In this document: piece after piece, positions 3,327 through 17,454 of the stretch
How positions within the stretch are numbered: the first letter of the stretch is position 1
How the letters are laid out: each line of letters opens with the position of its first letter
From: a virus
Virus record (IMG/VR): IMGVR_UViG_3300032293_000537
Location: 1 to 23,676 of that record
Reading direction: 5' to 3' (one strand)
Length of the DNA: 23,676 bases
The notes under the pieces: generated by a model
Seen by the model: the letters and a program-made list of their open reading frames with translations, nothing else
What the model was told of the DNA's origin: nothing
Database searches by the model: none
Made by a program: the position numbers and the translations under genes

Positions 3327-3859
3327 TGGCAGAATCAGGCTCAACACTTAACACTCCAGTGCTTTGGATTAATACATATCTAAGAGAAAAAATCAGTGCT
3401 TTGACTGGAACTGACATGCCACCATTTTTCCCATCATCTCCAACAGCACTTGACGCACTAACTTCATCATTCCCTAACTACAATGGAGGAGTTATGTGCA
3501 CCTGGGACAGACTTGTTAGAATGCGTAGGTCTCCATTCCCACATATCAAACAGGAGCAGTTGCTGTATTATTTTTATGCTACAGAAGCAAATGTTACAGA
3601 AACTATGGTTCAAATTCAAGAGTCAGTTCTACGCTTAATGGATCGTGAAGATGAAACCGCAGAAGAGATTAACAAATGGGCCAAGGCAAAGGGATCAATA
3701 GATGGAATGGATTGTAAATTCTTTTTTCATAAGTTTAGGGTATATCAATTAGAAGAAGTCAGAGATATAATAGATTTCGGAACAGCCAGAACATATGGCG
3801 GAAACAAGATAATTATAGACTTCGAGTACCACCAAGAAAACTCAATCGTAAACCCATAA
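3326..3859 (+). CDS. Putative tail terminator protein
   Basis: A 177-residue protein starting at the ATG in TAATG, with a clear Shine-Dalgarno (AGGGAGG, 3311-3317). It is the last gene before the tail tube protein, which is the standard place of the tail terminator that caps the tube and binds the head connector. The sequence has an N-terminal helix (TPVLWINTYLREKISALTG), then a strand-helix pattern (QEQLLYYFYA, METMVQIQESVLRLMDRE-like helix at about 90-112) and an ending strand (YGGNKIIIDFEYH). An alternation of strands and helices fits the tail terminator fold. No signature motif is visible; the call is by position and general pattern. Confidence 0.65.
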   Translation: MAESGSTLNTPVLWINTYLREKISALTGTDMPPFFPSSPTALDALTSSFPNYNGGVMCTWDRLVRMRRSPFPHIKQEQLLYYFYATEANVTETMVQIQESVLRLMDREDETAEEINKWAKAKGSIDGMDCKFFFHKFRVYQLEEVRDIIDFGTARTYGGNKIIIDFEYHQENSIVNP

Positions 3860-4570: not shown

Positions 4571-4606
4571 AGAGGCTCAATCCTTCGGGGTTGGGCCTTT
4601 CTGTTT
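4571..4606 (+). terminator. Strong intrinsic terminator with C(TTCG)G tetraloop after the tail tube gene
   Basis: A ten-base-pair G+C-rich stem (4574-4583 with 4588-4597) closes on a ttcg tetraloop flanked by C and G, the very stable C(UUCG)G type in RNA; flanking A-T pairs extend it outward. It is followed by tttctgttt. Two stem pairs are G-T wobbles. It lies 16 bases after the tail tube stop, and the extended -10 element of the next promoter starts at 4606, directly after the T tract. Confidence 0.88.
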
Positions 4607-4614
4607 GGTATACT
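4606..4614 (+). promoter_or_regulatory. Extended -10 promoter (TGGTATACT) giving an apparently leaderless transcript
   Basis: TG-G-TATACT ends six bases before ATG 4621. With the usual distance from -10 element to start site, the transcript would begin at or within a base or two of that ATG. No Shine-Dalgarno sequence precedes the ATG; the bases between are tatata and upstream lies the terminator. This is the classic arrangement of leaderless genes, which are common in actinobacteria. Confidence 0.6.
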
Positions 4615-4620
4615 TATATA

Positions 4621-5325
4621 ATGCCTACAGAAATATACAAAACCTCAACCATTGAACTCTTTGATGGAACAGAGTTGTATATAACACCATTAAAGATAAA
4701 ATACTTAAAGTTATTTTTACAAGAATTTGAAAGTGTTAAAGAAGCCAGAAACGATACAGAAGCAATTGACTCTTTATGTAGATGTGCAACAATAACAATG
4801 AGACAATATTATCCAAGCATAAAGACTCAAGAGCAACTTGAGGATAATATTGATATGCCAACAATCTATAAACTATTAGATTATTCGGCAGGAATAAAAA
4901 TAAACGAAAAATCAGAAGAGCCAGTAAAAGAGCAGGCAACTGAAAGTGGATCTACTTGGGATGACTTAGATTTAGCAGAGATAGAAGCAGAAGTATTTTT
5001 GCTGGGAATTTGGAAAGACTACGATGAATTAGAATCATCTATGTCAATGCCAGAGATAATGGCAACACTTAAGACTAAGAGAGATCTTGATTATTCTCAA
5101 AAGAAGTTTCTTGCTGCTATGCAAGGTGTTAACTTAGATGAAGCCAGTGGAAAGCAAAATGCCTGGGAAGAAATGAAGGCTAGAGTATTTAGTGGCGGAC
5201 AAGCATCTGACTCTAAAGATATTGTTGCACTTCAGGGATATAATGCACAAAAGGCTGGTTTCGGTATTGGCATGGGATTAACCTACGAAAAATTAGACGA
5301 ATCTGCACCCTCCAGCGTGGTATAA
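4621..5325 (+). CDS. Long tail assembly chaperone (GT-like, G and T domains in one frame)
   Basis: A 234-residue protein. ATG 4621 is chosen; an upstream in-frame TTG at 4591 lies inside the terminator stem. Residues 1-95 (IELFDGTEL, TPLKIKYLKLF, MPTIYKLLDY) form a domain that is visibly paralogous to the next gene (shared DGTE, PLK, a C-A pair, LED and PT-Y-D positions). Residues 110-234 form a second domain starting TWDDLDLAEIEAEVFLLGIW and continuing with ELESSMSMPEIMATL and KKFLAAMQGV, a pattern found in the T part of actinophage tail chaperones. Such proteins hold tube subunits and tape measure during tail assembly and are not in the virion. No programmed frameshift is needed because both domains are in one frame. 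No Shine-Dalgarno is present. Confidence 0.8.
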   Translation: MPTEIYKTSTIELFDGTELYITPLKIKYLKLFLQEFESVKEARNDTEAIDSLCRCATITMRQYYPSIKTQEQLEDNIDMPTIYKLLDYSAGIKINEKSEEPVKEQATESGSTWDDLDLAEIEAEVFLLGIWKDYDELESSMSMPEIMATLKTKRDLDYSQKKFLAAMQGVNLDEASGKQNAWEEMKARVFSGGQASDSKDIVALQGYNAQKAGFGIGMGLTYEKLDESAPSSVV

Positions 5326-5354: not shown

Positions 5355-5681
5355 ATGGCTGACAAGCCTTTAAACAGCAAAAGTATCACACTAATCGACG
5401 GTACAGAGATTGTAGCAAGACCACTTAAGTTATCATTGCTTAGACCATTCATGGCTAAGTTTTCTCTATTAGCAGAGTCATCAGATGATAATGATAAGTC
5501 AATGGATATTCTTATTGATTGTGCACAAATCGCACTAAAGCAATTCAAGCCAGAATTGGCAGAAGACAGAGAAGCGCTAGAGGATCTTCTAGACCTTCCA
5601 ACTGTTTATCAAATTATCGATGTAGCATCAGGACTTCAAAACTCCGATGCAGGAGCATTGCTTAATTCGCTAAACAAATAA
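5355..5681 (+). CDS. Short tail assembly chaperone (G-like paralogue)
   Basis: A 108-residue protein starting at ATG 5355, six bases after AAGGAGG. It consists only of the domain shared with the first 95 residues of the preceding gene: ITLIDGTEIVARPLKLSLL here against IELFDGTELYITPLKIKYL there, and LEDLLDLPTVYQIID against LEDNIDMPTIYKLLD. In the lambda paradigm a short protein G is made in large excess over GT; this gene has the stronger translation start of the two, which fits. It ends 19 bases before the tape measure start, leaving no room for a frameshifted T extension. Confidence 0.8.
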   Translation: MADKPLNSKSITLIDGTEIVARPLKLSLLRPFMAKFSLLAESSDDNDKSMDILIDCAQIALKQFKPELAEDREALEDLLDLPTVYQIIDVASGLQNSDAGALLNSLNK

Positions 5682-5700: not shown

Positions 5701-8700
5701 TTGGCAGATGTAAACTCTAATATAAATATTAATTTTAATACGGCTGCCGCCCTTGCACAACTTCGACAACTTCAGGCAGGCCTCAGTAAGTTTCATCAAT
5801 CACTTGCTGAGGGCAACCTGGCTGCTGCAAATGCTCAAAAAGGTTTAAATGCACAACTGCTTCAGTCTCTTGGAGCAACAGGAAAGTTTTCTGCAAGCCA
5901 AGTTAAAGTTGCAGGAAGTACATTAGCATTTACATCTGCTTTAGAAAAAAATAAACTTTCACTTCGTGAGTACTACAGATACACAATGGCAGCAGCAACT
6001 GCCAACACTCGTGTTCTGGGTAGGGCTTTTGCACAAGAGCGAGAAATTATCAACCGTGCAAGACGAGATAGAGTAAAGGCTTTACAAGCACAATACATCC
6101 AGATGAATAAAGCCAATGCTGGCTTTATGGATGCTATTCGCATTATGCCAAAAAATCTTCAGATGGCTAGTGGAAGATTTACTGAACTTGGAGCAAGAAT
6201 TCAGTATGCTGCACAAAGACAGCAATTCTTAAATCAATTATTAAAGCAGGGGTCAACACAACTCCTAAACTTCGGTAAGAATACTCAGTGGGCAGGTCGC
6301 CAGTTGATGGTTGGTCTTACAATGCCACTTGCTTTATTTGGTGCCTCTGCTGCAAAAGCATTTAGAGAACTTGAAGCAGAGATTGTTAAGTTTAAGCGTG
6401 TTTATGGAACAGCAGTTACAAATGATGCAGAAGTAAATGCTGCAGTCGAAAACATTAGAAAGTTAGCAACTGAATATACCAAGTACGGAGTCTCTGTTAC
6501 TAAAACAATGGAGATGGCTGGAACAGCAGCAGCAGCAGGTTTTGCAGGAGCAGCATTAAATACTCAGGTTGAAACTGCAACCAAACTAGCAGTACTTGGA
6601 CAAGTAGAGCAACAGCAAGCACTTGAAACAACTATGTCTTTGCAAAATGCTTTTGGTTTGTCTAGCGAAGAACTTGCAAAAAAGATTGACTTCCTTAACG
6701 CAGTAGAAAACCAAACCGTTCTTTCAATTGAAGATTTAACAATCGCTATTCCAAAAGCAGCACCAGTAATTAAACAACTTGGCGGAAACGTTGAAGACCT
6801 TGCATTCTTTATGACTGCAATGAAAGAGGGTGGAATCAACGCATCTGAAGGTGCTAACGCACTAAAGTCTGGTCTAGCATCCCTAATTAACCCATCCAAG
6901 AAAGCAGCAGGATTCCTTGCAGATCTTGGCATCAATGTTAAAGGAATTGTAGAAGCAAACCAGGGAGATATTAAAGCAACTGTTATTGGTTTTTCTCAAG
7001 CACTAGACACACTTGATCCACTTAATCGTGCAAGAGCAATTGAGCAAATGTTTGGAAAGTTCCAGTTTGCTCGTCTTTCTACCTTGTTCCAAAATGTTGC
7101 AAAAGACGGAACTCAGGCATCCAGAGCACTTGACCTAGCAGGATCTACTATAGAAGAATTAGCAGTCTTGTCTGAGCGAGAAATGAAGAAGATTGAAGAT
7201 TCAGTAGGAGTTAAGTTTCAAGCAGCAATAGAGCAGTTTAAGCAAGAGATCATGCCATTAGGTAAAGCGTTTCTTGAAGCACTAACTCCAGTTGTTAAGT
7301 TTTTTGGTAACATATTTGAAAAATTTAATGGATTAAGCGATCAAACTAAAAAGGTAGTTGCTGTCATAGTTGGAGTAGTTGCAGGTCTTGGACCAGTACT
7401 TCTTATGACATTTGGTTTACTTGCAAACGGCGTAGCAAATGTTATTAAGTTCTTTGCAATGTTGCGTGGAGGAATAGCAAAGTTAAATGGACAGACATCT
7501 GTAATGGGTGCAGGATTTAACTACATGACTCAAGAGCAGATAGAGTCCGCTGCAGCATCTCAACAGTTACACCAAACACATACAAGATTGATCGAAGTAT
7601 TTAATGTTGAAAAGGTTTCTGTAAATAATCTTGCTGCATCCTATCATGCTCTTAGCACACAAATGAGAACTATGGCTGCACAGAATCCATCATTGTTCGC
7701 AGGTGGAGTACCAGGTGCACGACGTGCAGTAAGCAAGTTGCCACCAGTTAAAAAGTATGCAGAGGGAATCCTGAGTGTTCCAGGTCCGAAGGGTGCAGGA
7801 GATGTTGTTCCAGCAATGCTTTCTCCAGGAGAAGCAGTTATTCCTACAGACACAACAAACAAATATAGAGGACTTATTAGTGCCATGTTCCAGGACAAGG
7901 TTCCAGGATTTATGGCTGGAAGACTTCCTGGTGGACCAGGTAGAGGAATACCACTATCTGATGGTCCAGCAGCAGTTAGAAAAGCACAGCAAGCAAAGTA
8001 TAGAAGAAGAGATGATGCAAGACAAGGATATAACGAGCCTCATCCAGAAGTTCCAACTGGTCCAGTATTTGTTGGAATGCCAAAGTCAAGCGATAAAACA
8101 TCTCAGTCAAGGCAGATAGTAGAAAAAATTAGTGATCAAGTAAGTGTCGGAAGATTTGGAACTTTGCCTCCATCAAACTTTGGGACACTACTTCAGCCAT
8201 TTTCTGGAAGAAGTTTCCCTGTTCAAGGAGTTGGCGGTATATATAGAAAGCCTAACGGAAAGATTGTTGTAGTAAAACCAACAATAGATGAAAAGACTGC
8301 ATTAGCAGAAGTTCGTGCTACTGAAATTGCAAGACAGGTTCATGGCCTAGTTGCACCAAAACAAAGTATTAGAACAATGATTGACCCAACAGATCCATCA
8401 GGTCAAAGAAAGTTTATAGTAATTGAATCACCGTATGATCCAAGAATAGCAGCGATGGATGGCAAGTTTAGCAAGTCTGATATGGTTAAGCAGTTAGTTG
8501 CTTCAACATTAAGAGGAGACAAAGATTTACAGCAACCAAACTTGTCTGGAAATGTGTTAGCAGATGTTGGAACGGCTGGAGTATTTGATAGAGCATCTGG
8601 TTTTAGAGATTTCTCAAAAGCAATGCCAAGCATGGAGGAGCAAGCAGTTGTTAACTTGCTTGGTGTAAAGGGAGGCGCAAAGAAGTTCTTTGCACAAGAA

Positions 8701-11700
8701 ACATCAGGTGTTGCAGCAAGCATGACACCAAAACAATATGATGATGCAATTAAGGGAGAGATCAATAGTTCTATTCCAAAACTAGAAAGACTTATTAAGT
8801 CTTGGGGTGGGGATTTAAATACAGAAGAGCAAGTTGTTTACAACAACATGCTTGAAAGACTTAAGGCTGGAGCAAAAGTACACTGGGATGAACTTCATCC
8901 AGTTCATGCTCGTGCATCAGAAGGTGTTAAAAAACTTGCACTTGGAGATTTTGAAAAGTTTAAAAATATTCCAGAATCACAAACACAGATATCAACACTA
9001 AGAAAAGGTCTTGCTGCCCAGGCTGCCAGAGATTTTAAGCAACTCCCTGAAGAGCAACAAAGAAGAGTTCTTGATGCAATTGCAAAACAAAAAATGAATG
9101 CAAGGACCCCAGCAGTAATTGGTCCACAGACATTAGAGGATTATCTAAGCCAAAGCAATATGCTTAAGTTTGTTGACGATGAACTTATTTATAAAGATGG
9201 ACTTTATCACGATAAAAAAACTTTAGATGCTGGAAGAGTTTATGGAAGAACACATGCAGAAATAATGCAAAAAGTTTTTTATCAGATGGGTATAAGACAA
9301 AAAGATGGAGAGTTTGTAAGCGATAACAAAATTAATACTGCTTCTAGATTAAGAAATGCAGTTAGTCCTGTAGGAAAAGAAAGTGGATCTTGGAGAGGAA
9401 ATGTTCCTAGAGACTCTGAATTATATCAAGTTTTAGATGCTGAAGAAAAAGCCTTTACAGAGCAAAACAAAATAGCAGGAAAAAATGACCCACTAAAGGC
9501 AGTAAGAGAAAAACTTGTTTCTTTAGGATACAAACCAAACGAGATTGATACTGCACTAAGAACTGAACTATCCCATATAAGTAAAACTGGAGAACCTGGT
9601 AAGGGTCCTGCTAAATGGTTAACAGGCTCTGCCATGTTTGATTTAGGTATATTAAATAAGTTTATGAACGCTTCAGTTAGACACGGGAAGATTTTAGACT
9701 GGAGTGCAAAAAATGGACACCCGTTTATTCCAAAAAATCAGATTGGAATTTATACTGAGGCTGCTGAGTTTATGTCAAAGGGTGGTCATCCAACAAATGA
9801 AAGAGAAGCAAGGTTAGTTCAAAAAGCAGCAGAACTTGATGTTCTGGCGCAGCAGTACAAGGATAGTGAAGAAAAAGCAGGAAGAAAGCCAAAGGGTTTC
9901 CCAAAACTAGGACCAGCAAAAACTGCTAAGGGAGTCTTGGCTGTTCTTGATGATAGATTTGGCACAAAGTACTATAGTTCTCCTCAACCAGAGTTCAATC
10001 TTAAGAGTGGGTCAGATAAAACATTACCAATCTTAGTAAACCCTGATGGTAGTGAGACCAAGATGACAATTGATCCAAAAACTAAAAGAGTAATAAGAAC
10101 AGAAAAACTAACAGATTCTAATACTACTGCAGCAAAGGCTGGAGCAGTCCCAAGCAGCGGAAGTCGCAAAGATAGCAGAGGAACATCATTAACGCCAGAC
10201 CAAACAGTTGTAACTAGAAGACAGTTTGCAAATTTCCGTAGAGGTTTTGCATCGATCCCTGGATTCTCTATGCCTGGAATGATTAAGGGTGATCCAAGAT
10301 TTGATTCTCAACCAGATAGACCAATGCCAACCCCTACAGTTCGTCAGGGTAGAGTGGCAGCAGATCTTCGTGCAAAGGGATATAGCCAAGACGAAATTGA
10401 TAGAGTATTAAGAAAGGTTGCAAAAGATGAAGCAAAACTTGCTAAGAGCAAGTCAGAGTCTGTAACTCAGCAAGCAAGAAATCAAAAATCAGACGACGCA
10501 GATCGCAGAAGACAGACTAATGAAGCAAGAGCCAGATTTAGAAAGCAGCAACATCTTTCAAATCTTAACTATAATCAGGCAAGGTATTATCAAGAAGCAT
10601 TAGATGAAGATGAAAGAAGAAAACTAAATAATCTTAAGCAGTCACAAAAACAAGATGCACAAGCACGAAAAAATAAGATTAAAGAAAAAAGAAACTATCG
10701 TGCACAAAAAGTTGGAGTAGCATCAGGCGGAATGGCTATGGGACTTGGCATGGCTGGATCTGCAATGTTAATGTCTGGCAATACATCTGGAGGCATGGCC
10801 ATGATGGGTGCTTCAGCAGTTGCTGGTATGGCTCCAATGCTTGCGGGTATGGGACCAATAGGCTGGATAACAACAGCAGCAGTTACTATAGGTGGTGGAC
10901 TATTATTATTAAATAAGCATTTTGAAAATTCTGCTAAAAAGCAAGCCCAGTATGTAGATTCAATATCAGCAACAACTAATAAGATGGACGAGATAGGAAA
11001 GATAACAGACAAGGTTGGCGCTTCTCGTGCAATGGACGAAGTGAGAAAGAAGGGATCATTTGGTTCATACAACGATGTCGAACGTGCTGGCACTGGATTT
11101 GGAGATACATTCTTAAGGTCAGAAGTTGGCAAGCAAATGGTAGATGGTTTTGTAAAAGAAATGTCTGCTAACGGCTCAACTGTTGCAGCAAAAGATTTTG
11201 CTTTACAATTATCAACATATGTTTCAGATGGAGTTTTAGATGCAGGACAGGCTGCGGACATTGCTGATCAAATAGGAGTACAACTTGGTAGTAGAAAGTA
11301 CACTGCTGAAATTCTTGGAGACCTAAGAGAAATTATTGGTCCAAATGGAGAAGATATTGCAAACAATCCACTTAAGGTAAGAATGGAAATTGTTTCAGAA
11401 ACAAGCAAGAGATCCGATAGAGTTCTTGGCGATATAAACAAAAAATCATCAGGAGTAACTTTTGGCAATGGAAGAACGGAGTCTGCACAACTTGCAGCAC
11501 TTTCTGTAAATAATATTGCTATTGCAAAGGCTCAAGCAGATGCAACAGAGTTTGAGTATAAAAAACGAATTCAGTTATTAGAAAAAGAGTTAGAGTCTAC
11601 TGCAAATGCAGAAAAACTTTTAAAAATAAAAGAAAAGATTGCTGAACTAGAAGGAAAGTTAACCGACGACATGGTGGTTGCAAACAACGCAGTTGTTGTT

Positions 11701-14700
11701 CAAATGGACCTAGAAAAGAAAAGATTTAAAGATAACATTCAGTCCGCAGGAGAGTTTTCTGGAGGAGTGCTTCTTCCGTCAGCAAAAGATCTAAAAGAAG
11801 ACGCATACTTTGATGCATTAAAATCTAAGGTTAAGGATGCATTCAAAGGCACAGGATTTGAGTCAGCAGCAGGAACAACTCTTGCAAAACTTTCTAAACT
11901 AAGCGATACCACAATGAATCCGTTTGACGGAGACAAAACAAAGGGAGGGTTTGCTAATAAAGCATTGGCTCAAGATTTTGAAGTTGACATGTCTCTTCTT
12001 CTTGCAAATAAAATAGTAAACCCTGATCAAATGAACACCTTCTTGGAGATGTTTAAAGGAAACTTGCCACAACTTAGTCAGACACTGAGGGTTGGAATTC
12101 AAAGACAGGGTTCTGGACCAACCATAGAACTACTGGAATACTTCTCAGCAATGAAAAAGGAAAAGGGCAAAGCAGATCCAGTTGAGATTGCTACAAAAAT
12201 TATTAACAGTGATAAAAAAACATTTAATGAAATAGGCGAGACGATGGCAGTTCTAAGAGCATTGGACGGCCACGAAATTAATATGGAAGCCTACATTAAA
12301 ACTGTTGGCTACGATGGTCTTGTAGACCTTTCTAAAGATTTAAAAATAATTGAGGGAATGCCAAAAACAATAGATAAGGCTATCATCCTTGACTACTTTG
12401 TTAACGGCAAGGGCAAGGGCATGGAGGGCATGTCTGAAAAGAACCTTGAAGTATTGTTTAGCAAGTGGAAAGACTTTGATAAACTTCCAGACTTTGCACA
12501 AAAAGAAGCAGTATCTAAATTTAAAACTATAATGGAAACAGTATTTGCTGATGAAGCATCCAGGTTGGCATTTTATAGTAAGTATGCAGAAAAGGCTACA
12601 GGCGGAGATACAACTGCTACAGGCCACTTAACATCGCTTATGTATAATGCAAAAAATGCAGATGAAACACTTGTTGACAGAGTTGCAGAAAGCGCAAAAA
12701 CTTATATTGGTGAAAATGGAGAAGTTCTTGTTAACTCTTCAGGAAATACTCCAGGTGATACTGGAGGTGGCAAAGGAAATGATCCACTAGCATTCTTAGC
12801 ACCATTGGCAATGGCTTTAAAGAATGTAAGAGACAATGCATTTAACGCCCTCACACCAGTAAAATCATTACTAGAATTATTGAAAGATAAAAAAACACAG
12901 AAGAATGCTTTTACTTTATTTGATGGTATTCAACATAGGCTTCTAAAACTTGGTGTTGGTCAAGAACTAAGAGATGCTGTTGCATCTATGTCTGCAGAAG
13001 ATTTTGCAAAGGTAGCAGCGCTACCAAAAGAAAAGGCTATGTTTACCTTTGAAACAGGAAAGCCAAGATCAAAGGATTCAATATCTGGTCTTGGTCCACT
13101 TGGAGAAGCAACAGACAAAGCAATTAAGGCAAAAGACCTTGGTAACTTTGACATTGCTAATGCAACAATAATAAGCGATATACAAAACCAGACTAAGGCC
13201 TATGCTATTCTTGTTGGTAGCGGCCTATCTGCAGCAAAAGCATTAGAGGTTGTTGCAGACTCAGGCCAAGCAGCAGCAATTGCAGCGGGAGCAATAGATA
13301 CATCATCACCAGCATGGCAAACATATATTAATAATATAAAGACAGCCAACACAGACCTTGAGCGCCAAGCAGTTTTAACTAAGGCAATAAAGGCAAATGA
13401 AGAGTTTGCTATGTACAAGCAGATGCCAGAACTTGTTTCTAAGATGAAGGAACTTGGATATAGCACAGATCAGATTGATGCAGTTCTTGGAGACCCAGAG
13501 TTAGCAAAGTTCTTAGTAGAAGATCTAAAGGATGGAAAGTTAGATGCTAAAGAAATTGCAGATACTCTAAATAACATTGAAGCAAGAAAGATTGTTGATA
13601 TTCAGATTGCTCTGAACAAGGGAGATCTTAAAGAAGCAAGCGATAAGGGAAGAGATGTTGTAGACGAACTATTTGCAGCACAAGAAGCACTTATTCGTAC
13701 AGGCCCAGAGGCAATGCAACTCAAGGGCAATCAAAGACAAATCAGAGATCTTGAAGGACAGATTGCTCCATTCCAAAGAAGAATTGCAGAACTCAATGAT
13801 GAAATTGAAGATGGTCAAAGAGCAATTGAAGAATCATACACAAGACCAATAGAAGATTTAAATGAAGAGATTAATGACCTAAACCGTGATCTAGAAATGA
13901 ATCCTTTCTTTGGTGACCGTGCAATAAAGAAGATTCAAGATGAAAACACAATGCTTTCAAATGATCTTGAAATTATAAATCATGCAGCAGATGAAGTTAA
14001 TAAGAGATACGACGAGCAAGCAGAAGCGCTTTCAAAGGTTCAAGAAATAAATCAAAACATCCTTGATCAGCAGAAGCAACAACTTGGTCTTGCTGATGCC
14101 TTGACCCAAGGTGATATTTCAGCAGCAGCACAGGCTGCACAAGACATGAGAGCAACAAGTGCTTCACAGTTTGCATCAGGTCAATCAGATGCATTGGAGC
14201 AGGCAAGACAAAATGCACTTGGTAGTCTTGTAGGTCCACAAAGTGGATTAACTCAGGAGCAGATAACTGAAAAGCAGTTCCAGAATTCACAAAAGATTTA
14301 TCAAATGGAAACTGATCCAAGAAGACTTGAGATATTAGATAAGATTCAGTTTAAGCAAGATCAAATTTATGAACTTGAAGAAAAGCGTGAAGCAGCATTA
14401 CGCAAGATTAGAGATCTCGAAGATGAAATTTGGAATATTGAAGAAAATTCTATCGAACCACTTCAAGAAAGAATTGATGCTCTTAACTACACAAATAGAT
14501 TATTACAAGATAGTATTGACAAGCAAATAGAAGGCCTCAAGGTTCTTGGAAAAACCAGGGACGAGTGGGATAGAATCAATGCAATGCTTGATATGGATGC
14601 AGCAACAAAGAGAGCACTTGCACAATCAGCAGACCTAGCAGGATTGCTTTCAGCAGCAGAACAACTAAACATGACATGGGCAGATATTCTTGCAAAGATG

Positions 14701-17454
14701 GCTGCGTATGCAAACGGAATTCCAGGTGCCGTTCAAAATGCAAGAAACGCAATTGGTGGAATTGGTGCAGATGCCTATGTGACACCTCAAGATACACCAG
14801 AATCACTTGCAGCATTTGAAGAGTTTTTAACTGTAGTTGAAGAACTTGATGCAGCCACTGCAGCATTAGAAGATGCATATGACAAGGGCCAGTGGGCACA
14901 GTTTGATTCACTGCAAAGAAGATTAGCAGCAGCACAAGATGCTTATAACAATACGCTACCTGTAGCAGATCCAAGTTCTATTGGAACAGGTGGCGGTATT
15001 GGTGGAAAATATGGAATGCTATATCAAGCAGATGGTGGATTCATTCCAAAGGGTACAGATACTGTACCTGCAATGTTAACTCCAGGAGAGTTTGTAGTTA
15101 GAAAGTCTGCAGTTGATCAGTACGGCGAAGGATTCTTAAATGATATAAACGTTCAAAGATTCTCAACTGGTGGAACCGTAGGTGCACCACATGGTCTAGG
15201 AATGTCATCAATGGGCTCTAGAAGCACCAAGACACAAGATGAAAGAGCAACATCGTTATTTGATAAGAAGATATGGGAAAAAACTGCTAACTTCTTTGCG
15301 CTTCCATCAATAGCAAAGACTGCTCTTGATATTGCAAAGTATGGCGGTATTCCTCAAATGTTCGCTGCTAAAGCAGTCGGTGCACCAACAAAGTCTAGCC
15401 TAAAAGATAATATAAATGCTGCTCTAGCAGTTGCACCAGTTCCAGGTATTAAAGCAGTAAAGCCACTAATTAACAAAATAAGCAATATGGTTCCTAAGAG
15501 CATAACAGAATCTCTTGGTAAAAATGGTATTGACATATTTAACAAACTATCAAAAAAGGCAAACGAAACAGTAGCATCAAAATCAAGTACAAGTTTAGTA
15601 GAAGAAAGAGTAGTAACTCCTGAAAACTATTCTGGTTTAACTAGTTGGGGAGCACCTAAGCCAACTTCACCTTCATATAGCAAGAATGATAGTCTCTGGG
15701 GCGATGACTGGGGACCAATGCCAGACTCGTCCGATATCGACTGGGCTAATATTTCTATTTCTCCTATGCAAAAAGTTATTGATAAACTATATGGTCTTGG
15801 TCCAATCGGCAAAGAACTGTCAAGCAAACTGTCAAGCGCCTTAGCCAACTATTCAAGTTTTAAATCTCCTCTTAAACAACAAATAATAGAGGCTTGGAAA
15901 TTTGGAATTAAAGAAAAAACTGACTTTGGATACGAACCTGCTTTGCTTGCTAAACTTGGACTATCTTTAGGAAATAAGATTAAATCCCCTATTGCTTCTT
16001 TATCAGATTCTTTTAATCCTAAAAGAATAAAGGAAACACCATCTCCAGATCGTAATTATATTCAAAACTCTATGCTTTCCACTAGCCTAAGAGGTGGAGA
16101 TGAAGTCCTTCCTAATAGGCAGTTTGCTGTTAGACAAGAACACTATGACACTGCATCAATATCTAATTTGTTTAAAAATATTGGATTAGATATTATAAGC
16201 CCAGTCACATCAACATTTAAAAAAGTTAAAACTGCAACAATGGATGCACTGTCAAAGAAATTTGCAGATACCCCATTTGGACAGAATATGGCTACGGCAA
16301 AAAATGCTGCCAAACGAAATAGCATGTTGTCAGACCCAGGATCTGTAGATCATTATAGAACTCAAGCAATAATAGACTCAATTCCAGGCGGACTTGGTGC
16401 CTTGATCCAAATGTATAGAGGTGTTCATAGGTCTGGCGTACCAATAACAGAGTTTCCATCTCCTTTAGAAAGATTCATAATATCAAAAACTGATGGATCA
16501 AAAACACCAATTAATGCATATGGTCCAGGACTGTATAGCGCAACAAGCCCAGTAACTTCTGAAAAAATATTTTCACAATTTGGTCCGTATCAGTATCGTG
16601 CAGACCTAACACCAAAAGCAATGCTTAAAGTTTTATCAAGTAAAGGTTTTATAAAGTTTGATGAACTTAGAAAGTTTGAAGACGACTTTTTTGCAAAAAC
16701 TGGAGAACCAGGAAGACGTTTGCACGATGTAAATGCTGACGTAACCTCTCCAATCGTTCAAGAACTTATGAAGGCTGGATATCTTGGATATAGACATGGA
16801 GATGCATTTACAAATTGGGGTGTAGGAAATATTCCTGGAATGAATTTAAAGAAGGTGGGTGGACCAGAAAAAGGAAGTCTTGGATATTCAGCCTTCCCTG
16901 ATGCGCCTGAATTGGCTACACCAAGTCTAAATGAAACTCAAAAAATTGGAACTAGTAAATCTTTGATTGCTAAGGCATCAGCACTTGTTGCTAGTGTTAC
17001 TGGTATTACTGGTCTTTCTTTATACAAGTCAGCAGAGGCTAAGGCAGACAATAGCACATCTTCATTAAGTTCTGTTGTAGAAAAACTTGTTGGTAATAAT
17101 GCTCCAATTCAAAGCGGTAGAGGTGGTGGCGGTGGAGTTGTAGATAGCATGATGTTCTCTAAGGGCGGACTAGTTCCAAGTTACTTTGCTCAAGGTGGAT
17201 ACGCTTCTGGAACTGATATAGTTCCTGCTATGCTAACACCAGGAGAATTTGTAATGAGCAAGTATGCCGTTCAATCTCACGGGGCAGATACTATGAGGGC
17301 AATAAATAATGGCTCATCAGTAGGTGACTCAGTGTATAATTATAGTATTAGTGTTAATGTAAAATCAGATGCAAACCCAGATGAAATTGCAAGAGTTGTA
17401 ATGACACAAATAAAGGGTATTGATTCACAAAAACTCAGGGGGAATAGATTATAA
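5701..17454 (+). CDS. Giant tape measure protein with putative kinase-like and ADP-ribosyltransferase-like domains
   Basis: A 3917-residue protein starting at TTG 5701, after AAGGGGG at 5684-5690; an in-frame stop at 5695 rules out earlier starts. In order: helical N terminus (1-180); tape measure core typical of phage tail proteins (about 180-530, with GLTMPLALFGASAAKAFREL and AFFMTAMKEGGINASEGANA); hydrophobic segment 551-588; VPAMLSPGE motif 695-714; kinase-like domain 820-1066; unassigned 1070-1570; basic charged helix 1572-1671; Met/Gly-rich hydrophobic stretch 1671-1738; coiled coils at 1942-1990, 2675-2800 and 2860-2965; second VPAMLTPGE motif 3109-3133; linker; ADP-ribosyltransferase-like domain 3565-3722; hydrophobic segment near 3755-3775; third motif 3831-3852. 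Tape measures set tail length and may enter the cell envelope. I see no peptidase or lysozyme motif. The tape measure call is near certain; the two enzyme-like domains are inferred from motifs. Confidence 0.95.
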   Translation: MADVNSNININFNTAAALAQLRQLQAGLSKFHQSLAEGNLAAANAQKGLNAQLLQSLGATGKFSASQVKVAGSTLAFTSALEKNKLSLREYYRYTMAAATANTRVLGRAFAQEREIINRARRDRVKALQAQYIQMNKANAGFMDAIRIMPKNLQMASGRFTELGARIQYAAQRQQFLNQLLKQGSTQLLNFGKNTQWAGRQLMVGLTMPLALFGASAAKAFRELEAEIVKFKRVYGTAVTNDAEVNAAVENIRKLATEYTKYGVSVTKTMEMAGTAAAAGFAGAALNTQVETATKLAVLGQVEQQQALETTMSLQNAFGLSSEELAKKIDFLNAVENQTVLSIEDLTIAIPKAAPVIKQLGGNVEDLAFFMTAMKEGGINASEGANALKSGLASLINPSKKAAGFLADLGINVKGIVEANQGDIKATVIGFSQALDTLDPLNRARAIEQMFGKFQFARLSTLFQNVAKDGTQASRALDLAGSTIEELAVLSEREMKKIEDSVGVKFQAAIEQFKQEIMPLGKAFLEALTPVVKFFGNIFEKFNGLSDQTKKVVAVIVGVVAGLGPVLLMTFGLLANGVANVIKFFAMLRGGIAKLNGQTSVMGAGFNYMTQEQIESAAASQQLHQTHTRLIEVFNVEKVSVNNLAASYHALSTQMRTMAAQNPSLFAGGVPGARRAVSKLPPVKKYAEGILSVPGPKGAGDVVPAMLSPGEAVIPTDTTNKYRGLISAMFQDKVPGFMAGRLPGGPGRGIPLSDGPAAVRKAQQAKYRRRDDARQGYNEPHPEVPTGPVFVGMPKSSDKTSQSRQIVEKISDQVSVGRFGTLPPSNFGTLLQPFSGRSFPVQGVGGIYRKPNGKIVVVKPTIDEKTALAEVRATEIARQVHGLVAPKQSIRTMIDPTDPSGQRKFIVIESPYDPRIAAMDGKFSKSDMVKQLVASTLRGDKDLQQPNLSGNVLADVGTAGVFDRASGFRDFSKAMPSMEEQAVVNLLGVKGGAKKFFAQETSGVAASMTPKQYDDAIKGEINSSIPKLERLIKSWGGDLNTEEQVVYNNMLERLKAGAKVHWDELHPVHARASEGVKKLALGDFEKFKNIPESQTQISTLRKGLAAQAARDFKQLPEEQQRRVLDAIAKQKMNARTPAVIGPQTLEDYLSQSNMLKFVDDELIYKDGLYHDKKTLDAGRVYGRTHAEIMQKVFYQMGIRQKDGEFVSDNKINTASRLRNAVSPVGKESGSWRGNVPRDSELYQVLDAEEKAFTEQNKIAGKNDPLKAVREKLVSLGYKPNEIDTALRTELSHISKTGEPGKGPAKWLTGSAMFDLGILNKFMNASVRHGKILDWSAKNGHPFIPKNQIGIYTEAAEFMSKGGHPTNEREARLVQKAAELDVLAQQYKDSEEKAGRKPKGFPKLGPAKTAKGVLAVLDDRFGTKYYSSPQPEFNLKSGSDKTLPILVNPDGSETKMTIDPKTKRVIRTEKLTDSNTTAAKAGAVPSSGSRKDSRGTSLTPDQTVVTRRQFANFRRGFASIPGFSMPGMIKGDPRFDSQPDRPMPTPTVRQGRVAADLRAKGYSQDEIDRVLRKVAKDEAKLAKSKSESVTQQARNQKSDDADRRRQTNEARARFRKQQHLSNLNYNQARYYQEALDEDERRKLNNLKQSQKQDAQARKNKIKEKRNYRAQKVGVASGGMAMGLGMAGSAMLMSGNTSGGMAMMGASAVAGMAPMLAGMGPIGWITTAAVTIGGGLLLLNKHFENSAKKQAQYVDSISATTNKMDEIGKITDKVGASRAMDEVRKKGSFGSYNDVERAGTGFGDTFLRSEVGKQMVDGFVKEMSANGSTVAAKDFALQLSTYVSDGVLDAGQAADIADQIGVQLGSRKYTAEILGDLREIIGPNGEDIANNPLKVRMEIVSETSKRSDRVLGDINKKSSGVTFGNGRTESAQLAALSVNNIAIAKAQADATEFEYKKRIQLLEKELESTANAEKLLKIKEKIAELEGKLTDDMVVANNAVVVQMDLEKKRFKDNIQSAGEFSGGVLLPSAKDLKEDAYFDALKSKVKDAFKGTGFESAAGTTLAKLSKLSDTTMNPFDGDKTKGGFANKALAQDFEVDMSLLLANKIVNPDQMNTFLEMFKGNLPQLSQTLRVGIQRQGSGPTIELLEYFSAMKKEKGKADPVEIATKIINSDKKTFNEIGETMAVLRALDGHEINMEAYIKTVGYDGLVDLSKDLKIIEGMPKTIDKAIILDYFVNGKGKGMEGMSEKNLEVLFSKWKDFDKLPDFAQKEAVSKFKTIMETVFADEASRLAFYSKYAEKATGGDTTATGHLTSLMYNAKNADETLVDRVAESAKTYIGENGEVLVNSSGNTPGDTGGGKGNDPLAFLAPLAMALKNVRDNAFNALTPVKSLLELLKDKKTQKNAFTLFDGIQHRLLKLGVGQELRDAVASMSAEDFAKVAALPKEKAMFTFETGKPRSKDSISGLGPLGEATDKAIKAKDLGNFDIANATIISDIQNQTKAYAILVGSGLSAAKALEVVADSGQAAAIAAGAIDTSSPAWQTYINNIKTANTDLERQAVLTKAIKANEEFAMYKQMPELVSKMKELGYSTDQIDAVLGDPELAKFLVEDLKDGKLDAKEIADTLNNIEARKIVDIQIALNKGDLKEASDKGRDVVDELFAAQEALIRTGPEAMQLKGNQRQIRDLEGQIAPFQRRIAELNDEIEDGQRAIEESYTRPIEDLNEEINDLNRDLEMNPFFGDRAIKKIQDENTMLSNDLEIINHAADEVNKRYDEQAEALSKVQEINQNILDQQKQQLGLADALTQGDISAAAQAAQDMRATSASQFASGQSDALEQARQNALGSLVGPQSGLTQEQITEKQFQNSQKIYQMETDPRRLEILDKIQFKQDQIYELEEKREAALRKIRDLEDEIWNIEENSIEPLQERIDALNYTNRLLQDSIDKQIEGLKVLGKTRDEWDRINAMLDMDAATKRALAQSADLAGLLSAAEQLNMTWADILAKMAAYANGIPGAVQNARNAIGGIGADAYVTPQDTPESLAAFEEFLTVVEELDAATAALEDAYDKGQWAQFDSLQRRLAAAQDAYNNTLPVADPSSIGTGGGIGGKYGMLYQADGGFIPKGTDTVPAMLTPGEFVVRKSAVDQYGEGFLNDINVQRFSTGGTVGAPHGLGMSSMGSRSTKTQDERATSLFDKKIWEKTANFFALPSIAKTALDIAKYGGIPQMFAAKAVGAPTKSSLKDNINAALAVAPVPGIKAVKPLINKISNMVPKSITESLGKNGIDIFNKLSKKANETVASKSSTSLVEERVVTPENYSGLTSWGAPKPTSPSYSKNDSLWGDDWGPMPDSSDIDWANISISPMQKVIDKLYGLGPIGKELSSKLSSALANYSSFKSPLKQQIIEAWKFGIKEKTDFGYEPALLAKLGLSLGNKIKSPIASLSDSFNPKRIKETPSPDRNYIQNSMLSTSLRGGDEVLPNRQFAVRQEHYDTASISNLFKNIGLDIISPVTSTFKKVKTATMDALSKKFADTPFGQNMATAKNAAKRNSMLSDPGSVDHYRTQAIIDSIPGGLGALIQMYRGVHRSGVPITEFPSPLERFIISKTDGSKTPINAYGPGLYSATSPVTSEKIFSQFGPYQYRADLTPKAMLKVLSSKGFIKFDELRKFEDDFFAKTGEPGRRLHDVNADVTSPIVQELMKAGYLGYRHGDAFTNWGVGNIPGMNLKKVGGPEKGSLGYSAFPDAPELATPSLNETQKIGTSKSLIAKASALVASVTGITGLSLYKSAEAKADNSTSSLSSVVEKLVGNNAPIQSGRGGGGGVVDSMMFSKGGLVPSYFAQGGYASGTDIVPAMLTPGEFVMSKYAVQSHGADTMRAINNGSSVGDSVYNYSISVNVKSDANPDEIARVVMTQIKGIDSQKLRGNRL
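7351..7464 (+). other. Hydrophobic membrane-type segment of the tape measure (residues 551-588)
   Basis: After a KK pair, residues 551-588 are almost entirely hydrophobic (VVAVIVGVVAGLGPVLLMTF, then GLLANGVANVIKFFAML). This follows the tape measure core directly, as in many siphovirus tape measures, where such segments are thought to insert in the host membrane during DNA entry. Confidence 0.75.
7783..7842 (+). repeat. VPAMLxPGE motif, copy 1 (tape measure residues 695-714)
   Basis: The protein reads PGPKGAGDVVPAMLSPGEAV. The same short motif recurs at residues 3109-3133 and 3831-3852. The motif is common near the ends of tape measure proteins; here the first copy follows the membrane segment and lies before the kinase-like domain. 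Confidence 0.85.
8158..8898 (+). other. Putative HipA/PI3K-like kinase domain within the tape measure (residues about 820-1066)
   Basis: The order of motifs fits a small kinase fold. A glycine turn and strand pair (VQGVGGIYRKPNGKIVVVKP) places a lysine at 859 in the VVVK position. A helix with glutamates 870 and 875 follows (ALAEVRATEIARQVHG), then a strand-hinge segment (KFIVIESPYDP). The catalytic-loop candidate is G939-D940-K-D942-LQQP-N947, with D+5 = N as in HipA and PI4K-like enzymes, and D963 in GVFDRASG is in the place of the metal-binding DFG-type aspartate 16 residues later. The usual loop histidine is replaced by glutamine. The helical end (YNNMLERLKAG, HWDEL) follows. This is motif-based inference without a database comparison. 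Confidence 0.55.
10711..10914 (+). other. Met/Gly/Ala-rich hydrophobic stretch of the tape measure (residues 1671-1738)
   Basis: A 68-residue hydrophobic stretch with about 11 methionines in 50 residues (for example GGMAMGLGMAGSAMLMSG) that ends in IGWITTAAVTIGGGLLLL. It directly follows about 100 strongly charged, basic, helix-forming residues (1572-1671). It is long enough for two membrane passes. Confidence 0.7.
13723..14595 (+). other. Coiled-coil region of the tape measure (residues about 2675-2965)
   Basis: Two long heptad-like blocks (2675-2800 and 2860-2965) are rich in Glu, Lys, Gln, Leu and Ile, with segments such as IAELNDEIEDGQRAIEE and IYELEEKREAALRKIRDLED. They are separated by an Ala/Gln-rich part. 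Extended coiled coils are normal in tape measures, which span the tail lumen. Confidence 0.8.
15025..15099 (+). repeat. VPAMLxPGE motif, copy 2 (tape measure residues 3109-3133)
   Basis: The protein reads QADGGFIPKGTDTVPAMLTP followed by GEFVV. It is close to copy 3, including the GG-aromatic-x(2-3)-GTD lead. It stands where the coiled coils end and the linker to the ADP-ribosyltransferase-like domain begins. Confidence 0.9.
16393..16866 (+). other. Putative ADP-ribosyltransferase-like domain within the tape measure (residues about 3565-3722)
   Basis: The segment LIQMYRGVHRSG gives an arginine (3573) in the Y-R-G context typical of the first NAD-binding strand. NAYGPGLYSATSP (3605-3617) matches the aromatic-G-x-G-x-Y-x-[ST] turn, and SEKIFSQFGPYQYRADLTPK resembles the helix and strand after it. 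The end, MKAGYLGYRHGDAFTNWGVG then IPGMNLKKV, matches the GYDGxx...(F/W)...P.xIK-V tail of phage and MuF-linked ADP-ribosyltransferase domains. A clear ExE catalytic pair is not identifiable by eye, so the domain may be inactive or belong to a different subgroup. A preceding linker (VAPVPGIKAVKPLINKI, about 3237-3260) looks like the PVPG linkers in front of toxin domains. Confidence 0.5.
17191..17256 (+). repeat. VPAMLxPGE motif, copy 3 (tape measure residues 3831-3852)
   Basis: The protein reads QGGYASGTDIVPAMLTPGEF followed by VM. It lies close to the C terminus, the usual position of this motif in tape measure proteins, and forms with copy 2 a pair on both sides of the ADP-ribosyltransferase-like domain. 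Confidence 0.9.

Follow-up and report, generated by a model that had tools for sequence, protein, structure and literature searches.

Few phage proteins are longer than tape measure proteins (TMPs), whose middle regions are generally regarded as a ruler. A hydrolase motif in the TMP of TM4 was reportedly described by Piuri and Hatfull in 2006. Among the closest described systems are the TMP-related effectors of contractile injection systems (CIS), such as Tme of Streptomyces davawensis, a TMP relative with an enzyme part, an endonuclease (PMC11126660, PMC13277306). According to PMC13277306, TMPs themselves are ejected and insert into the host membrane. Phage effectors packaged in the virion are likewise on record, in heads and as polyvalent proteins (PMC9503650, PMC5512222), PMC9503650 placing its NAD-related effectors mostly in myoviruses rather than siphoviruses. 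Here we consider a 23,676-base stretch of viral DNA (IMG/VR record IMGVR_UViG_3300032293_000537, positions 1 to 23,676; hereafter the window), the largest gene of which encodes a TMP of 3917 amino acids (aa) with a predicted kinase-fold domain in its interior.

Like Tme, this is a TMP-related protein with a putative enzyme or effector part; Tme carries a C-terminal endonuclease and serves a CIS, whereas the present case is a mid-protein kinase-fold module in a phage TMP. The polyvalent-protein kinases (Iyer et al. 2017, PMC5512222) resemble it in that a large phage protein of several domains, believed to pass into the host, houses a kinase domain. Those kinases have lost the C-terminal subdomain and carry an insertion between His and Asp; the TMP domain is modelled with a helical C-lobe, which rules it out of that group, and the main text of the paper has 0 occurrences of "tape measure". 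In the open-access literature searched we recognised no paper that assigns a kinase domain to a phage TMP; the 95-aa "kinase domain protein" of PMC8876498 is separate and distinct from that phage's TMP. TMPs with an enzyme part have precedents, and so do kinases delivered by the virion; their combination in a variable slot is not found in the literature searched.

The predicted kinase fold and its conserved residues

The TMP gene (5701..17454, + strand as are all features below, TTG start as listed) lies in a siphovirus-like tail region. Its product matches PhageMin_Tail (PF10145) in Pfam (E 5e-26, 92.3 bits against a cut-off of 33.2), TIGR01760 tape_meas_TP901 in NCBIfam (E 1.3e-32, 113.2 bits against 28.8) and tape-measure families of PHROG, and the PhageMin_Tail / tape_meas_TP901 core identifies it, by sequence, as a TP901-type TMP. 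Residues 800-1082 (8098..8946) very probably adopt a two-lobed kinase fold, to judge from the AlphaFold2 model and its structural neighbours. Computed from 34 aligned sequences, the model has a mean predicted local distance difference test (pLDDT) of 86.4 and a predicted template modelling score (pTM) of 0.86, with the five models spanning a mean pLDDT of 82.9-86.4, and divides into an N-lobe at about residues 829-911 and a C-lobe at about 912-1070. The order of its elements is kinase-like (model number equals residue minus 799): strands lead to strand 3 (56-61), which bears K859, and to helix C (65-80) with E870; these are followed by strands 90-95 and 105-112, a hinge, helix 126-139 and a loop holding D940, D942 and N947, then by two short strands (149-150 and 153-154), D955 and the helical C-lobe, the helices of the C-terminal half being 126-139, 179-188, 196-207, 211-239 and 242-258.

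Structural comparison places the model among kinases. When 1000 PDB chains drawn from Foldseek were aligned in a second comparison, 84 reached Z of at least 8, and the best 50 entries all belong to the kinase superfamily by their titles or, for the LepB and "MDT" entries, by the nature of the protein. The Z-scores were 11.9 for CotH, 10.3 for CtkA, 10.2 for PI4KII, 9.7 for LepB, 9.4 for VPS34, 9.3 for Fam20C, 8.9 for HipA and 8.3 for HipT. The best entry, the spore-coat kinase CotH (PDB 5jd9), aligns over 213 residues with a root-mean-square deviation (rmsd) of 3.5; it is only 8% identical, with other kinases at Z 9-10, and CotH is not a tail protein. HipA, HipT and CtkA (Z 8.2-10.3) and the lipid kinases PI4KII, PI4KIIIb and VPS34 (Z about 8.2-10.2) likewise resemble the domain in fold, the latter at rmsd 4.5-8.6 and 8-15% identity. 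Among the predicted viral structures of BFVD, six match the model at E<=0.001, and each belongs to a large protein (829-1340 aa): a 1201-aa protein named as an HK97 portal, a 1220-aa protein named as an ADP-ribosyltransferase, an unnamed protein of 829 aa, R4T6E8 of HHTV-1, a 1340-aa protein of Mycobacterium phage Onyinye also named as an ADP-ribosyltransferase, and an uncharacterised protein of 955 aa.

Residue conservation carries the second half of the argument. The set comprised 264 domain-bearing loci of 325 (a figure that includes repeat fetches of the same contigs), from which 137 distinct full-length copies, with 3 partial ones dropped, were reduced at a 90% identity cut to 90 representatives and aligned; a count on 62 representatives agrees with that on 90, and the lowest pairwise identity in one aligned family set was 41%. 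K859 (8275..8277), the strand-3 lysine expected to contact the ATP phosphates, is invariant (90/90), and E870 (8308..8310), the helix-C glutamate expected to form a salt bridge to it, is kept in 89/90. In the catalytic loop D940-K941-D942 (8518..8526) both aspartates are invariant, D942 being the likely catalytic Asp, with an Asn five residues on; that Asn, N947 (8539..8541), is invariant as well and likely binds metal. A glycine pair, G845-G846 (8233..8238; 89/90 and 90/90), opens model strand 47-50 and possibly forms a glycine-rich loop. The DFG-type, metal-binding Asp is probably D955 of D955-V956-G957 (8563..8571), which follows strands 149-150 and 153-154; the assignment rests on element order and conservation, because D955 is invariant (G957 being kept in 88/90) and D963 (8587..8589), the earlier candidate, is Asp in only 27/90. 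D963, which sits in the interior stretch that is modelled with the lowest confidence (161-170, mean pLDDT 56), is ruled out by that count, though an Asp of HHTV-1 discussed below lies beside it in a weakly aligned stretch. Model and alignment together hold two lobes, a strand-3 Lys, a helix-C Glu, a catalytic Asp, an Asn at +5 and a metal Asp after the following strand pair, as kinases of the superfamily do. Compared with six relatives by simple counting, the domain has a ratio of nonsynonymous to synonymous substitution (dN/dS) of about 0.10-0.18, which indicates at the sequence level that it is under purifying selection; for the TMP core it is about 0.07-0.10 in four pairs.

The original prediction had drawn an ordered set of kinase motifs from the letters of this region, and its positions are correct: residue 820 is base 8158, and VVVK with K859, E870, E875, G939-D-x-D942, N947 and VFDR with D963 stand where it put them. 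A kinase fold inside a TMP, two lobes included, is what the model, its neighbours and the invariant catalytic-type residues indicate. Of the motifs, K859, E870 and D942-x4-N947 proved conserved and E875 (22/90) and D963 did not, so that of the four positions on whose conservation the prediction had staked itself (K859, D942, N947 and D963) the first three held in every representative. The D-to-N spacing of +5 likewise stands; the N-to-D spacing of +16 gives way to the invariant D955 at +8. The replacement of the catalytic His by Gln holds for the window (Q944), with His in a single representative. The resemblance to HipA or PI4K-like kinases extends to the fold, with no significant sequence-profile match to HipA, and the Foldseek search that it had proposed found kinases throughout the best entries of the second comparison and, as a plain PDB search, no match at E<=0.001.

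Sequence searches gave the domain no name. Residues 800-1082 have no counterpart in Pfam, PHROGs, NCBIfam or PADLOC; the sole Pfam-A entry for residues 751-1133 at E<=1 was Gluconate_2-dh3 (E 0.095), and sequence searches of the PDB yielded only noise, such as a cutinase at E 0.13. Membership in the CotH family is not borne out by that Pfam-A scan, nor is membership in the PI3K/PI4K family (PI4KII, PI4KIIIb and VPS34 included), though the fold is similar. The HipA loop G-x-x-D-x4-N (GATDGHAKN) can be set beside GDKDLQQPN of the TMP domain; the His of DxHxxN is kept in only 1/90 TMP domains, and the Asn-to-Asp distance is +8 here, whereas HipA would have +18, on the assumption that its metal-binding Asp is the one in FYD (D332). 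HipA membership is ruled out by the lack of a profile match and of a Pfam match and by that His count. In uncultured virus contigs the domain is common: four scans with progressively wider queries, each keeping at most 80 stretches, confirmed 37, 84, 183 and 246 domain stretches. The 50,697 isolate-phage records gave no match at E<=1 for the domains of the window and of a second locus (L079); with the domain of a third (L095), 32 records appeared at E<=10, the best 15 of the 32 at E 2 or more. Two scans of bacterial and archaeal genomes, one per species, gave 22 and 132 pattern matches with 0 confirmed relatives. The domain is best called a new kinase-fold family found in TMPs.

Of the BFVD matches, the one in HHTV-1, a haloarchaeal virus, could be followed into an annotated genome, where gp13 is the only annotated gene matching the length of R4T6E8 (1100 aa); from this we infer that the two are the same. 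gp13 belongs to the head gene region, a MuF-like gene following two genes later, and its sequence holds LTGNRDIHGGNFIV...PVDNG. The likeness consists of the BFVD structural match (E 6e-4) and of the residues paired in profile alignment: the 90-representative profile against gp13 (pairwise E 0.0022, probability 12.9%, 1/200 shuffles scoring as high) sets K859, E870, D942 and N947 on K, E, D and N, with D942 on the D of GNRD, and a narrower profile (A3) makes the same E, D and N pairs at P 0.034. The difference is that gp13 stands beside head genes, not within a TMP, and is silent in Pfam (nothing at E<=1). That gp13 is of kinase nature is our own reading. As observed by eye, the unannotated gp13 (L157:9436-12738) shows a kinase-like loop, GNRDIHGGN...VDNG, and two HExxH stretches.

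Several results weigh against the kinase reading. None of 608 Foldseek matches of the model in the PDB reached E<=0.001, and the PDB entries listed, mostly kinases, superpose poorly overall with low TM-scores. In the libraries searched, no sequence profile links the domain to any named kinase family; hhalign to E. coli HipA gave a probability of 0.2, and for the kinase part 17/100 shuffles scored as high. The gp13 alignment has a probability of only 12.9%, and as HHTV-1 was selected for it through the structural hit it serves as support, not discovery; beyond N947 it is unreliable, the Asp of VDNG falling beside D963 and not on D955. Nor is there conservation of the His or Lys that normally stands two positions past the catalytic Asp: position 944 is S in 39, Q in 27, G in 20, A in 2, H in 1 and K in 1 of the representatives, that is, S, Q or G in 86/90. 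In HipA and in PI3K-type enzymes a His occupies the matching position.

Presence, absence and exchange behind the core

Of 156 loci, a figure that counts repeats and the window itself, 147 carry the kinase-fold domain and the TMP N-terminus in a single open reading frame (ORF). Of the other nine, eight have ORFs that start at the locus edge and one, L036 (contig IMGVR_UViG_3300045125_000031), is frame-broken; its kinase ORF spans only 174 aa, several stops lie at the PhageMin_Tail match, and the break reflects either decay or an assembly error.

A search with the conserved N-terminal TMP core (residues 41-660, 5821..7680), the query for TMPs with and without the module, found at least 599 loci, of which the best 80 were taken: 28 have the kinase, 45 do not, and 7 were too short and were dropped. 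The remaining 73 TMPs, with 60 different core sequences, were grouped by the 350 residues after a VPAMLxPGE-type repeat. The 28 kinase carriers fall into one group, and the 45 others into groups of 17, 11, 8, 6 and 3. The group of three (L182, L185 and L186) is the kinase-less form of the same TMP, its slot sequence matching, by profiles, the post-kinase sequence of 23/28 carriers; an initial count of six exchangeable module groups was too high for this reason. The other four (42/73 TMPs in total; representatives L199, L188, L192 and L203) have no profile link to the kinase or to each other over the first 350 residues, except that the last ~80 residues of the 11-group profile reach a shared downstream TMP part, through which profiles of 700 residues do link the four. 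The four representatives, one per group, have no Pfam match at E<=0.1. By eye, many members of these groups carry a short (A/S)H motif.

The extent of the module can be read from L182, the core of which is 80% identical to that of the window: a global alignment leaves out about residues 741-1072 (~330 residues; 7921..8916, ends approximate) and aligns both flanks. In a quick tree of the core, the presence/absence label needs at least 3 changes, and L182 and L185/L186 are nested among carriers. Loss of the module thus seems to have happened repeatedly, with the caveat that L237, whose long branch is of uncertain position, accounts for one of the three changes. Since L182 lacks the module, aligns on both sides of it and is nested among carriers, the TMP can evidently do without it.

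Other features of the protein and the window

The slot is preceded directly by a boundary repeat, DVVPAMLSPGEAV (residues 701-713, 7801..7839), with further copies at residues 3120-3132 and 3839-3851. In the form D-x-VPAMLxPGExV, the three copies begin at residues 701, 3120 and 3839 (window 7801-7839, 15058-15096 and 17215-17253); a phrog_35029 match falls around the last, and similar repeats also stand upstream of the variable slot in kinase-less relatives, among the relatives displayed. After the kinase, residues 1083-1580 (window 8947-10440) form a second part of the TMP. They have no isolate-phage match at E<=0.01, are ~41% identical to kinase-less L182 and vary strongly among kinase carriers (e.g., 23% in L160).

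Further downstream, residues 3501-3750 (window 16201-16950) resemble an ADP-ribosyltransferase by eye (MYRGVH...GPGLYSATSP...GYRHGDAFTNWGVGN), and a like segment is present in 9 virus loci. With no Pfam match and a model at pLDDT 42.4, this guess is unconfirmed and is put to no use here.

The N-terminal 700 residues of the TMP match 296 isolate-phage records, among them 127 Streptomyces and 105 Gordonia phages; the best 25 of the 296 are all Streptomyces phages, at 25.9-30.2% identity. The partial first gene of the window resembles major capsid proteins of Streptomyces phages, best at 45% (LukeCage). Two tandem ORFs before the TMP gene (4591-5325 and 5355-5681) have N-termini that are alike by eye and resemble duplicated tail-assembly chaperones.

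Possible roles of the module

The likeliest role of the domain, as we infer it, is that of an exchangeable kinase cargo delivered with the DNA. On balance we lean towards residues ~741-1072 being a self-contained, removable cargo module whose body, modelled as residues 800-1082, would be a kinase-fold enzyme of atypical kind that forms a separate family and acts on the host; a cargo role fits with its absence from, or replacement in, TMPs that share the core. Judging by its residues, the domain is reasonably likely to be catalytically competent: K859 and E870 would hold ATP, D942 would be the catalytic Asp, and N947 and D955 would bind metal. The TMP would run through the tail tube, leave it on infection and lodge in part in the host membrane. 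The module sits between two hydrophobic stretches (549-585 and 1719-1737), so that it could face the cytoplasm after insertion and would there transfer phosphate to a host target, or alter that target by some other use of ATP, before phage gene expression. Such early passage into the host is plausible because TMPs are described as ejected (PMC13277306). If the domain is active, its action is somewhat more likely than not to fall in the newly infected host. Against delivery stands its size, as a folded domain this large may be too bulky for the tail tube and might have to be unfolded or sit at the tip. A broader version, which we hold tentatively and at somewhat less than even confidence, is that the region behind the TMP core is a polymorphic effector slot resembling those of polymorphic toxins, one of whose at least five occupants would be an undescribed family of active kinases, injected by the tail and acting on host proteins before phage gene expression.

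Several other explanations share part of this evidence. The kinase fold and its ATP pocket might serve folding, regulation or binding in the tail, as in a pseudokinase or scaffold. The S, Q or G two residues after the catalytic Asp in nearly all representatives would suit such a protein, as would the presence among the structural neighbours of Fam20A, a pseudokinase; still, invariance of K859, D942, N947 and D955, with E870 lost once in 90, would be unusual for a domain freed from catalysis, and TMPs lacking the module have open frames over the compared regions, all of which makes this account rather unlikely. It is also conceivable, if unlikely, that the enzyme is active with another chemistry or substrate, transferring AMP or phosphorylating a lipid or small molecule instead of phosphorylating protein. 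Its neighbours mix protein kinases (CotH, CtkA, HipA and Fam20C) with lipid kinases (PI4KII, VPS34 and PI4KIIIb), and the short spacing from N947 to D955 (+8) recalls compact kinases such as SelO, in which the Asn-to-Asp spacing is short; the best structural entry, CotH, is nevertheless a protein kinase, and the present data separate no chemistries.

Where and whether a kinase acts at all can be doubted on other grounds. As part of a virion structural protein encoded among tail-like genes, the domain could work in the virus-producing cell or in the particle, by autophosphorylation or by modifying tail proteins at assembly, rather than in a newly infected host. This is improbable, given that close TMP relatives lack the module and that unlinked sequences replace it in 42/73, as expected of cargo. 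That a chance motif in a helical TMP has been mistaken for a kinase would accord with the missing family name and the weak Foldseek E-values in the PDB; it is very hard to credit beside a confident fold, kinase neighbours in the best 50 entries and the invariance of the residues.

With the module read as an exchangeable cargo, the fixed catalytic residues, together with presence and absence on the same core, suggest that the ruler also serves to deliver payloads that can be swapped. The module offers a concrete test of whether siphophage tails inject enzymes, with the residues to mutate already named, and its slot points out four further groups of uncharacterised sequences that occupy the same place.

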